This document shows positions 1,178 through 10,740 of a stretch of 64,000 bases of DNA, in pieces (the stretch's first letter is position 1; each line of letters starts with the position of its first letter). The stretch spans positions 22,667,429-22,731,428 of the forward strand of contig OZ022576.1 of the NCBI GenBank assembly GCA_963669155.1. The letters are read 5' to 3'. The translations under genes were made by a program, and so were the position numbers. Origin of the DNA: Arbacia lixula. Its lineage: Eukaryota; Echinodermata; Echinoidea; Arbacioida; Arbaciidae. Under the pieces are notes generated by a model. It was given only the letters and a program-made list of their open reading frames with translations. It had not been told where the DNA came from and did not search any database.

Positions 1178-1825
1178 CATAATCATGATAATCTCACCTG
1201 CCGAAATTTGAAATATAACCATGGTAACTTACTGCTATAGCTGTCCAACCTCGGTAAGAGCACCCATCTCTATATCACTCTCATCCTTTCTCGCATATGA
1301 AATGCCTGAAGCTGTTTCAATTCATATTATCTTTATTGCCCTATGTTTGTATCGTTGGAGTATATGAACGCCATAGTATCAAACAAGATGGATTGGGTGT
1401 GGATCGCCATCCCCTTTTTGCCTTTTCGTTGACAAACGCCCAATCACACAAAATAGCAGCCCTTTTTCGGGAGGGGGTGGGCAATGTAATACGAATGCTT
1501 TCTTGTTTACTTGTTTACTTGATAGTAGGTGGTCGTGACTTTCAGTTGTAGAGTAAGTGAGACATTGATATCCATTAGAATGATTAAACGAGGTAGCCAC
1601 TAGCTGTGCGTAGCGCTAAAGAGCTCAGACTGGAGGCAGTAATGCTAGTGTTTCCTGCGATCACACACAAAAAAATGCTGAAAAACACAGGCATCAATAA
1701 ATCACTGTGCTTTAAGCTACGTCAATGCTGCACAAAGACATATCACATGGTATGAGTGGATAAAGGGAGGGGGGAGGGGAGGGCAGAGACGTCACGTCTA
1801 TGCTGTTCATAGCACCAGTGAGAGA

Positions 1826-1980
1826 TGTAGAGACAGACAGAGAGACAGATAGAGAGAGAGAGACAGACAGACAGACAGACAGACAGAGAGACAGAGAGAG
1901 ACATACAGAGAGAGAGACAGAGAGAGAGAGGGGCAAAGAGAGAGAGAGAGAGAGAGAGAGAGAGAGAGAGAGAGACAGAA
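1826..1980. repeat. (GACA)n and (GA)n microsatellite
   Basis: The tract begins as AGACAGACAGAC-type tetranucleotide repeat and passes into pure (GA)n from about 1936 to 1975. Its counterpart in the right copy is at 6910-7022 and has a different internal structure. Long reading frames on both strands here are artefacts of the repeat. Confidence 0.95.
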
Positions 1981-2040
1981 ACAGAAAGGAAGAACCACTA
2001 CTGACTTCTGATGTAAGCACAACATAAAACCCAAATCCAG

Positions 2041-2115
2041 CCCCCCCCCCCCCCCACACACACACACACATACACTCACATACAAACATACACAGAGACA
2101 CATACACACGTACAC
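2041..2115. repeat. Poly-C run followed by (CA)n
   Basis: Fifteen C residues are followed by a pure (AC)n stretch and then by degenerate CA-rich sequence. The matching tract in the right copy is at about 7053-7145. Confidence 0.9.
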
Positions 2116-2421
2116 AAATACAACACTCACGCACTGAGACACACACATTGATGATACACGCACGGAGAAAGTATGGACACCACACGTGTGTGATTGAATT
2201 ATGAGCGATGCAGTCTGTCGCAGTGTGTTAACATCACACTTAGATCTTCCAGGGTTGTGATTGATGGTAGTATAATGCGTACATCTCCCATGTCCCTGGA
2301 TCAGCATTAGCACCTCTAGTAAAGGTAGGTAGGGTCACCACACACAACCTACAACGGCCGAGAAGTGGGTGACTTGCGTGTAATTGCACATCCAATGAAT
2401 GAGTTCACCCCTCACTCACTC

Positions 2422-2525
2422 ATTCTCTCTCTCCCCCCCCCCTCTCTCTCTCTCTCTCTCTCTCTCTTTCTCTCTCTCTCTCTCTCCCTCTCCCTCTCCC
2501 TCTCCCTCTCCCTCTGCCTATCTCT
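2422..2525. repeat. (CT)n and (CCCTCT)n microsatellite
   Basis: A pyrimidine tract of (CT)n, then CCCTCT hexamers from about 2486. The right copy (7449-7545) has a different arrangement, (CT)n followed by (CCCT)n and a poly-C run, so this tract is highly variable between the copies. Confidence 0.92.
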
Positions 2526-3120
2526 ATCACATCTTTCTCTCTCCCCGTCTCTCTAAAGGTGTTATAACAAACGTAAGATCGCCTTCAGGGTGAGGACTTG
2601 ATGTCCCTTTTAGTTTAGGTCTAGACCATCTCTTGCATACCAATGACATCATTAAAGAAGCATGGTTATATGCGCCATAAAACGTCTTGAATGATAAAAA
2701 TGATACGACACATATCACAACGGGTTGGTGATACACTCTTAATACGAGCACGCAGTCATGTCCCGTACTCCACATAATCGTGGATGATTTACTCACTTTT
2801 AGTCAGCTGACGGTTTTAGTTCTGTCTGTCTGTATCTTTCTCTTTCGTTCATTCTCTCACTCTTTTTCTCTCTCATGTAATCTCTCCCTCTTTTCCTTCA
2901 ATCTCCCTCTCTGTCTTTCATAACTTGTCTTCCTCTCTTTCCTTGTCTAAGAAATATTGATATACAATATCATGAATATTATATTATCTATTCATCGATA
3001 TATTTTCATATGTAGTTAGCATGTTATGTGTTCCGCTCCAGCATGTCAATGATTATCTGTTTTGTTTCATTCCTCGCCCCCCCCCCCCTCATCCTTCGAC
3101 ACCTCTACCTCCTTCTATAG

Positions 3121-7100: not shown

Positions 7101-7448
7101 TACACATAAACACAGACACAGACACAAACACACGTACACACATACAACACTCACGCACTGAGGCACACACTTTGATAATATACACACGGAGAAAGTATGG
7201 ACACCACACGTGTGTGATTGAATTATGAGCGATGCAGTCTGTCGCAGTGTGTTAACATCACACTTAGATCTACCAGGGTTGTGATTGATGGTGCTATAAT
7301 GCGTACATCTCCCATGTCCCTGGATCAGCATTAGCACCTCTAGTGAAGGTAGGTAGGGTCACCACAGACAACCTACAACGGCCGAGAAGTGGGTGACTTG
7401 CGTGTAATTGCACATTCAATGAATGAGTTCACTCCTCACTCACTCATT

Positions 7449-7545
7449 CTCTCTCTCCCTCTCTCTCTCTCTCTCTCTCTCTCTCTCTCTCTCTCTCCCT
7501 CCCTCCCTCCCTCCACCCCCCCCCCTCTCTCTCCCTCTCCCTATC
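7449..7545. repeat. (CT)n and (CCCT)n tract, right copy
   Basis: Pure (CT)n gives way to CCCT repeats, a C run and further CT. It corresponds to 2422-2525 of the left copy but has a different internal order. Confidence 0.92.
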
Positions 7546-8143
7546 TCTATTACATCTTTCTCTCTCCCCGTCTCTCTAAAGGTGTTATCACAAACGTAAG
7601 ATCACCTTCAGGGTGAGGACTTGATGTCCCTTTTAGTTTAGGTCTAGACCATCTCTTGCATACCAATGACATCATGAAAGAATCATGGTTATATGCGCCA
7701 TAAAACGTCTTGAATGATGAAAATGATACGACACATATCACAACGGGTTGGTGATACACTCTCAATACGAGCACGCAGTCATCTCCCATACTCCACATAA
7801 TCGTGGATGATTTACTCACTTTTAGTCAGCTGACGGTTTTAGTTCTGTCTGTCTGTATCTTTCTCTTTCGTTCATTCTCTCACTCTTTTTCTCTCTCATG
7901 TAATCTCTCCCTCTTTTCCCTCCATCTTCCTCTCTGTCTTTCATAACTTGTCTCCCTCTCTTTCCCTGTCTAAGAAATATTGATAAACAATATCATGAAT
8001 ATCACATTATCTATTCATTTATACATTTTCATATGTAGTTAGCATATAATGTTCCATCATTATGCTCCATCATGGCCATGTTTATCTGCTTTGTTTCATT
8101 CCTCCCCCTCATCATCCTACGACACTTCTACCTCCTTCTATAG

Positions 8144-8880
8144 TGCTGCCAATCTAGCTTTGGTCTCATGCTCCCTATTCCCCTGGCAACCCCTCTCTAC
8201 TGCACCCCCTACCCCCCCCCCCCCTCCCACACACACACACAAACACACATGAGACCACCAATTCCCTCCCCGTCATCCTACCCCGACCCCTTCTCTATGT
8301 AATGTTGGCAGTCTAGCTTTAGTCTCATTCTCCTTGTTTTCAAATTTTCGCTCTGAACCGTCTTCATTTTATCAAAACACGAGAGTCCCAGCTCTCTCCC
8401 CATAATCGTGCCCCACCCCCAAAAATACATTAAACAACACACTACACACCCTCCTCTTTCTCCAATGCTGCCAATCTGGCTTTGGTCTCATTCTCATCGT
8501 CTCTTTCGCAAACCCTCTCCATTATTAATTCACCCCCACACCAGGCACACGAGAGCCCCAGCTCCCTCCCATCATCGTCCCCCTGCCCTCTTCTTAAATG
8601 CTGCCAATCGAGCTTAAGTCTCATTCTCCTCGCCTTCCAACTCTCCCAACCCTCTTCACACCTCATTATGCGAGCCCCACCTCCCTCCCCATCACCCTGC
8701 CCTGGGCCAAGCCCCCCCCCCCCCCCCCCACCACCACCACCACTGCTTCTCTAGTGCTCTATCTCTGGCCTCATTCCTCTTGCCTCCAACCGAGTTCTCG
8801 CGAACCCTCTGTATTCACCCCCCACACGAGAGCCCCCAGCTTCCACCACCAACACCATCTCCATCTCAGCACCCAAACAT
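8144..8880 (+). repeat. Degenerate five-unit minisatellite, right copy
   Basis: Units begin at 8144, 8303, 8466, 8599 and 8755, the same order and sequence types as the left array at 3121-3955. The first unit has only a short CA tract. The fourth unit is followed by a poly-C run and (CCA)n, as in the left copy. Confidence 0.85.
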
Positions 8881-9789
8881 TGCATTGACGTTGACATGCA
8901 GCATGTGCAGGGTGAGTCATCGCATCGCATGTAAATTCAATTTACGCAGCTGAATTATCCTACATGCCGCGATAAACTATCCATCTCAGGGCTGCAATGA
9001 GGGGGTATCAGATGTAAATGTCAACGGCTGTCATGGATTGTGGGTGGGAATGATTTATTGTTTACTGATGTTTTAAATGCACACAACTAATATGTTTACG
9101 CAATACCCATACTATTGTTGAGTGATGCTAAATGAAAACATCGAACGAACATCTTTGTGCATCACCTTCGCCATGTTCACATGATCAAATTTGCTGAACA
9201 CGGCTTACTTCAGCACGATTAACTGCGCTGAATCGAATAAACTTTACCAAAACATTCAACTTAGGCATACACGGTGGTATACCACTACTGTGCCTGGTGC
9301 GTTCTGTTTTTGTACAAGACATAGCACATTACTCTAACTACATCCGGCATTCTTAGCATTATGTATTAACATTGGACTGCATTTATCATCTTAATACATA
9401 TACTGATATAGATTGATATTGCAGGCGGCTGATTAGAGAAACAAGTCAATTATTCACGCTACAATCCGAAACTAATCTTACCGTTTATAAGCGGATAACC
9501 AGTCATGACAGTAGCAAGGTCCAGTATGCCGGTCCTATGTGTAGCCGTGTAGAAAGAAAAATCAATGATTGTCCCCTAGCATGCGTAGTAGACGACGAAT
9601 TAATGAATAAGACCTTTTGTTCAGAACCGACAGCCGCACTCCTAAATCAACACATCCCAGTGTACATTTAATTTAAAGGGGGTTGCTTGTATTAGCTAAG
9701 GCCATGACGGATGAGGTAAATACAGTGAACCACGTGACCCGCTTACCTTTATTCTCCATACCACTGAGAGTCTGAACATAAATCCACCG

Positions 9790-10335
9790 TTGGTACCCTC
9801 CTCCAACACGCTACTCTCCCTCGCGCAGTCTCTCTATACACAAAAGGCGCCGCGGTCTCTCGTCCCCGAAGATCGCCGTCTGCAAAGCACGCAAACTACA
9901 TGGGCTGCTAGCTGTACCCGTACCGTAACCCTCCGTCCAACACCACAGACGATGATAGAAGACGAAGCATCCAAAGCCGGATCGCTGTACGATCTCTCGA
10001 ATGAATACAAACTCCGTCAGTGGTATAGCATCGCTAGTGCTATAAAATCATTTAGATATCTACCAAAATGGTGTCGATGTTTCGGGGCATTCGCATTTTG
10101 CTTTAGCCAGAGATCTCTCGTGTGGCGCCCATGCATCCGTAAATGCGCTATGCTATCGGAGGGGGCTATGATGTCGCGGTACACACATCACACACACGCC
10201 GAAGCATATTGTCCCCCTGTCTCTCTCTTTAGGAAGGATGCCGGTTTTGAGGTTCCCTCGCGTGTCTTAATTTGCCGCCTCGCTGTTCTCTTCCAGTGTG
10301 TGTTACATTGCGAACATGCATGTGAATTGCTTTGA
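9790..10335 (+). other. Unrecognised open frame, doubtful coding value (right copy)
   Basis: Counterpart of the frame at 4865-5413, 181 codons. It lacks four codons near residue 75 and is frameshifted relative to the left copy after a five-C run near 10213, so the two predicted C-termini differ entirely. This pattern fits drifting noncoding sequence better than a conserved gene. Confidence 0.2.
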
Positions 10336-10740
10336 CAGTAACTTCGTATTTGCATTTTGTATGAGGTGGAGATGCAACTGCGGGTTTGGCTTGTCACTTT
10401 CACTGTTTTCATATCGTTGTCTCACTCTTTGCATAACGTCGCCTTTGCTTCTTAACATTTTGAAACCCTAGTTTCGGCAATGTGGAGGTGCTTGCCGGCA
10501 ACTACAAGGGGTAGTTTTGAATGTCAGTTTCTTGCCTGTTTGATTTCGGTCTTCCTTACTTGCTCTTAATTTTCTTGACTCCCTCATCCATTCCATATGT
10601 TGATTTTCCTCTTTCTCATTTTCCTGCATTAACCGACATCTTCGCCGCTCTAGATACTACCACGGCGCTCTAAGTTGGTTACACAAATGGAAAACATACT
10701 TAAGAGTGGGTTGAATGTATATATATATATACATATATAT

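Follow-up and report, generated by a model that had tools for sequence, protein, structure and literature searches.

Among the primary traits published for false duplications in genome assemblies are an assembly gap that separates the copies, a halved read depth, and one-copy k-mers (PMC9516828). The program purge_dups was built to remove retained heterozygous overlaps, and in the paper presenting it, most insects and marine animals serve to exemplify outbred species of high heterozygosity (Guan et al. 2020, PMC7203741). Here we analyse a block of about 4.5 kb that occurs on both sides of an assembly gap in the sea urchin Arbacia lixula (assembly GCA_963669155.1, contig OZ022576.1). The studied window, meaning the whole stretch of 64,000 nucleotides that was analysed, comprises bases 22,667,429-22,731,428 of a 55,639,544-bp scaffold, in an assembly of 606,990,701 bp and 590 contigs. 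The duplication is best explained as a heterotype false duplication, i.e., a heterozygous overlap of neighbouring contigs, a reading that we consider very probable.

According to the A. lixula assembly paper, HiFi reads were assembled with hifiasm, collapsed with purge_dups, and scaffolded by YaHS with Omni-C, which yielded an unphased assembly. The paper reports a heterozygosity of 3.47% from back-mapping and of 4.40% from k-mers, and cites ENA PRJEB60287 in the legend of a figure. The published assembly is described as having 607.91 Mb, a longest scaffold of 55.6 Mb, a GC content of 39.33%, and 698 sequences (22 chromosomes and 676 unplaced scaffolds), while the version analysed here has 590 contigs and is about 0.9 Mb smaller. 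In a literature search for a phased A. lixula assembly, the unphased paper was the only one among the matches listed with the species in its title.

Structure of the duplicated block

Self-BLAST and alignment of the 64-kb window present positions 1178-5799 a second time at 6250-10740, on the same strand and in the same order. The recurrence was recovered in four pieces: 1178-1900 against 6250-6983 (93.5% identity), 1894-3232 against 6903-8249 (89.1%), 3303-5763 against 8228-10674 (96.3%), and 5758-5799 against 10699-10740 (97.6%). The three long pieces have a BLAST E-value of 0, and the last one, of 42 bp, has 4e-13; given these values, a chance match between the copies is out of the question. 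An earlier reading of this DNA (hereafter the original prediction) had proposed that a block at 1178-5776 recurs at 6250-10717, and these four pieces bear that out.

Copy 1 (1178-5776, forward strand), which we read as haplotype A, is preceded by a left flank (1-1177) that occurs once in the window. At 5777-6049 it gives way to a (TA)136.5 array of 273 bp that is 100% pure, where the left contig ends directly before the sole N run of the window, of exactly 200 N (6050-6249). Copy 2 (6250-10717, forward strand), read as haplotype B, opens the right contig. Because the first base past the gap, 6250, already pairs with 1178, copy 2 is inside the block from the first base of its contig. Where copy 1 has the long TA array, copy 2 has an interrupted TA tract of 23 bp (10718-10740, delimited by eye and with BLAST support), after which the sequence continues as the remainder of the right contig (10741-64000). 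This rightward continuation belongs to copy 2 only, and positions 10741-14000 have no second copy within the window, internal repeats of 105-133 bp excepted. These observations agree with the original prediction, which had the left copy running through a (TA)n array into exactly 200 N, and the right copy starting mid-sequence after the gap and alone continuing into unique DNA. On the right contig the homology begins with the first base (0 bp away from the start), and on the left contig it stops 250 bp short of the end, with TA array filling the remainder. This arrangement corresponds to two contigs whose facing ends overlap across a scaffolding gap.

A gap of exactly 200 N is what we take to be the YaHS default. 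One assembly paper mentioning YaHS gives 54 gaps of 200 Ns (PMC12134992), another YaHS-using assembly has 26 gaps of 100 Ns (PMC12360841), and the gap size is not stated in the consulted portions of PMC10590160 or of the YaHS paper (PMC9848053). Given these mixed sizes, the gap length is weak support for the identity of the scaffolder.

Divergence between the copies

The end-to-end alignment of the copies has 4423 ungapped columns, which are 95.5% identical; identity is 90.1% when gap columns are counted as differences. With simple repeats masked, 135 of 3945 sites differ, i.e., 3.42%, divided into 71 transitions and 64 transversions. This value is close to the reported heterozygosity of the species (3.47% or 4.40%). 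Divergence by 300-bp bin ranges from 0.7% to 10.9%, the top bin being 2978-3277, which contains C-rich and CA arrays and where the alignment is uncertain. Positions 1178-1740 present a divergence of 3.20%, and the clean stretch 3960-5757 one of 2.19% (block bootstrap 1.46-2.97%). Hence, the substitutions of a few percent or less that the original prediction described are found on average, but not in every part of the block.

The copies are further separated by 19 indels. The largest one, of 98 bp, is located at a CA array that measures 114 bp in copy 1 and, by eye, about 20 bp in copy 2; the next ones have 38 and 30 bp, within or beside purine arrays, followed by one of 29 bp near the 3' end. 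In repeat units, the CA array has 57 in copy 1 and about 10 in copy 2, and the TA array at least 136 and about 11, respectively. Microsatellite lengths are thus very different between the copies, as had been anticipated.

A degenerate C-rich minisatellite is also present in both copies (3121-3810 and 8144-8730), with four recognised units in each. The units lie at 3121, 3378, 3546 and 3679 in copy 1, where they are 130-257 bp long, and at 8144, 8303, 8466 and 8599 in copy 2, where they are 130-163 bp long. Partner units of the two copies are 93-98% alike, against 63-71% for any other pairing of units. Given this one-to-one pairing, the copies are collinear through the repeated stretch.

Copy number in the genome

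An 801-bp probe from copy 2 was found in two places genome-wide, both of which are the copies in the window; the search skips very common words, so its counts are lower bounds. The left flank (1177 bp) has one full-length place genome-wide and 34 further hits that cover short parts only. Most of these 34 hits are due to a dispersed repeat of about 100 bp at 83-199, which is found on many scaffolds with 67-85% identity.

A local self-comparison covered the window and the 100 kb to either side of it, a total of 264 kb with 261.3 kb readable and a GC content of 39.7%. It yielded 25 pairs with at least 300 bp and at least 85% identity. The only direct pairs above 700 bp are the three long pieces of the block. 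The remaining pairs comprise one short tandem array, repeats with lengths of about 370-610 bp, and a 1.5-kb pair in inverted orientation whose members are separated by 72 kb. No further 200-N gap exists in these 264 kb, i.e., in the window and the 200 kb beside it. Hence, the sole direct duplicate of such size and the sole 200-N gap coincide.

Origin of the duplication

From their sequence, we infer that the copies are alleles of one locus, about 3.4% apart and with different microsatellite lengths. The duplication is most likely an ordinary assembly artefact with no real duplication behind it, and the real chromosome most likely carries one copy of the block per haplotype. The central claim of the original prediction, that two haplotypes of one locus were joined at the gap, is indirectly supported by the layout, by a divergence similar to the heterozygosity, by the one-to-one minisatellite units, by the copy number of the probe, by the left flank, which is single-copy except for its short dispersed repeat, and by the unphased state of the published assembly.

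Such an artefact could have been produced as follows. The two alleles would have been separated by the assembler into different contigs. The left one would carry allele A and terminate in the long (TA)n array, whose sequence is presumably hard to read or resolve. The right contig would begin within this locus on allele B and then run into the right flank; its start may reflect where the assembly graph naturally ended, or a cut introduced during purging. The 4.5-kb overlap would have been missed as a duplicate at purging, possibly because the arrays of unequal length at about 1829-3330 break it up. Chromatin-contact scaffolding would then have set the contigs side by side, with the 200-N gap between them.

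Some observations weigh against a heterotype false duplication. The assembly fitting the published one was purged with purge_dups, which is expected to remove such an overlap, and the 2.19% divergence of the clean stretch 3960-5757 is under the reported genome-average heterozygosity. In addition, the content of the gap is hidden, and therefore a true tandem duplication whose junction fell within the gap would show the same visible ends. A duplication of this kind would be old, have at least 4.6 kb, be present in both haplotypes, and have lost its junction and part of each unit in the gap behind the long (TA)n array, in a block without recognised genes. Two direct copies do adjoin in one scaffold, and the sequence holds no proof that the hidden stretch is empty. 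However, the divergence is close to the reported heterozygosity, no other direct duplicate above 700 bp exists in the 264 kb while this one is at the sole 200-N gap, and no junction is found within one contig, as the gap parts the copies. HiFi reads exceed the unit in length, and their error rate is far below a 3.4% difference. They should hence separate copies that are 3.4% apart, and no contig break would be expected for a true duplication, which we regard as improbable.

The same layout at a gap could also be left by a homotype false duplication, in which a single haplotype is assembled twice through read errors. This would have to account for 135 substitutions in 3945 sites, with 71 transitions against 64 transversions, and for indels of 12, 29, 38 and 98 bp; differences of such number and kind far exceed HiFi consensus error, and the probability of this origin is close to nil. 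It is just as hard to credit that two members of a dispersed-repeat family are adjacent by chance: part of the block does consist of simple repeat and degenerate minisatellite, yet the 801-bp probe matches only these two places in 607 Mb (a lower-bound count). Finally, a tandem duplication may be polymorphic between haplotypes, with two copies on one and one on the other. Allele-specific tandem duplications do occur, one being mentioned in PMC9516828, although that example lay inside one contig. Here, the polymorphism would require one more event, and three versions of the block would be expected, whereas the probe has only two places in this assembly, which lacks the second haplotype. We consider this polymorphism very unlikely, and retain the heterotype false duplication.

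Read as such, the block clearly exemplifies a heterozygous overlap left behind in an assembly that fits a genome published, after purging, for a very heterozygous animal. Counts of tandem duplications or paralogous blocks made here would be inflated by one false entry, and mapped reads would be expected to look hemizygous on either copy. As an allelic pair, the copies would illustrate arrays that change strongly while the rest differs by about 3%. No biological conclusion is altered by the block.

Gene content and other repeats

Open frames were defined from stop to stop, with at least 72 amino acids and an entropy filter. From the resulting 133 frames, 126 were scanned against Pfam, seven frames in copy 2 being left out. 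No convincing Pfam match was found in these 126 frames; frames under 72 amino acids are outside the scan, so short exons may be missed. Three Pfam families were matched by one frame each, with best E-values of 0.0013, 0.0072 and 0.0081, and were taken as chance, given that about 1.3 such matches are expected from 126 scans at E 0.01. The 64-kb window has no match at the Rfam gathering threshold and no tRNA gene.

The longest open frame, at 4790-5410, has 207 amino acids, and its counterpart in copy 2, at 9715-10332, has 206. Between the copies, a 1-bp indel is located at 5300 of the frame; five silent differences, four replacement ones and one 12-bp indel precede it, and two more differences follow it. 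In 200 mononucleotide shuffles of 53 kb, the longest frame had a median of 139 amino acids, a 95th percentile of 178, and a maximum of 215. Given the 95th percentile of 178, a frame of 207 amino acids is long for chance. It has no Pfam match up to E 1. The frame is common to both copies and may or may not be an exon.

Other repeats were observed in the window and its surroundings. About 1.5 kb at 51756-53243 recurs inverted about 72 kb rightwards, with 95.4% identity. An element of about 373 bp at 30427-30799 is self-complementary over its full length (85%) and resembles a fold-back or miniature transposable element; the right flank contains similarly sized relatives. Positions 18115-18773 hold about three tandem copies of a 215-226-bp unit, which share a 69-bp segment that is 75-97% alike. 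The right 100 kb contains repeat families of about 535 bp (five places) and about 600 bp (three places), 88-96% alike, and the left 100 kb contains one member of the 535-bp family. Minisatellites are present at 20402-20542 (13-bp unit, 10.8 copies) and 57133-57192 (17-bp unit, 3.5 copies), and a perfect 37-bp inverted pair is found at 38412-38448 and 39119-39155, about 670 bp apart.

Comparison with described assembly artefacts

The false heterotype duplications of Ko et al. (2022, PMC9516828) resemble this locus in that two alleles are neighbours in a scaffold, with a gap between them, in a heterozygous animal. The gap between a pair on the same scaffold, one of the traits given in that paper, is present here as 200 N. 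The further criteria there are half read depth on both copies, haplotype-specific k-mers with read support on both sides, and linked read pairs that are discordant or spanning. Differences able to yield haplotype-specific k-mers are present as well, at 135 of 3945 unmasked sites. In contrast, the heterozygosity values in the table of that paper are 0.22-0.95%, against 3-4% here.

Kelley and Salzberg (2010, PMC2864568) described duplicated overlapping contigs (DOC), in which neighbouring contigs align to each other by the ends that face. Their rule asks for adjacent contigs whose alignment exceeds 300 bp and comes to within 300 bp of each facing end, and for mate pairs that become more consistent once the contigs are merged; here, the contigs are adjacent, and the alignment lies 0 bp and 250 bp from those ends. 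For the rule's identity threshold of above 95%, the value depends on how the copies are compared: 95.5% in ungapped columns, 90.1% with gap columns, and 89.1-97.6% among the BLAST pieces.

The heterozygous overlaps addressed by Guan et al. (2020, PMC7203741) are similar to this one, which is an overlap of primary contigs that we read as derived from homologous chromosomes, in a marine animal. The difference is that the overlap persists here, in an assembly fitting one that was purged by purge_dups.

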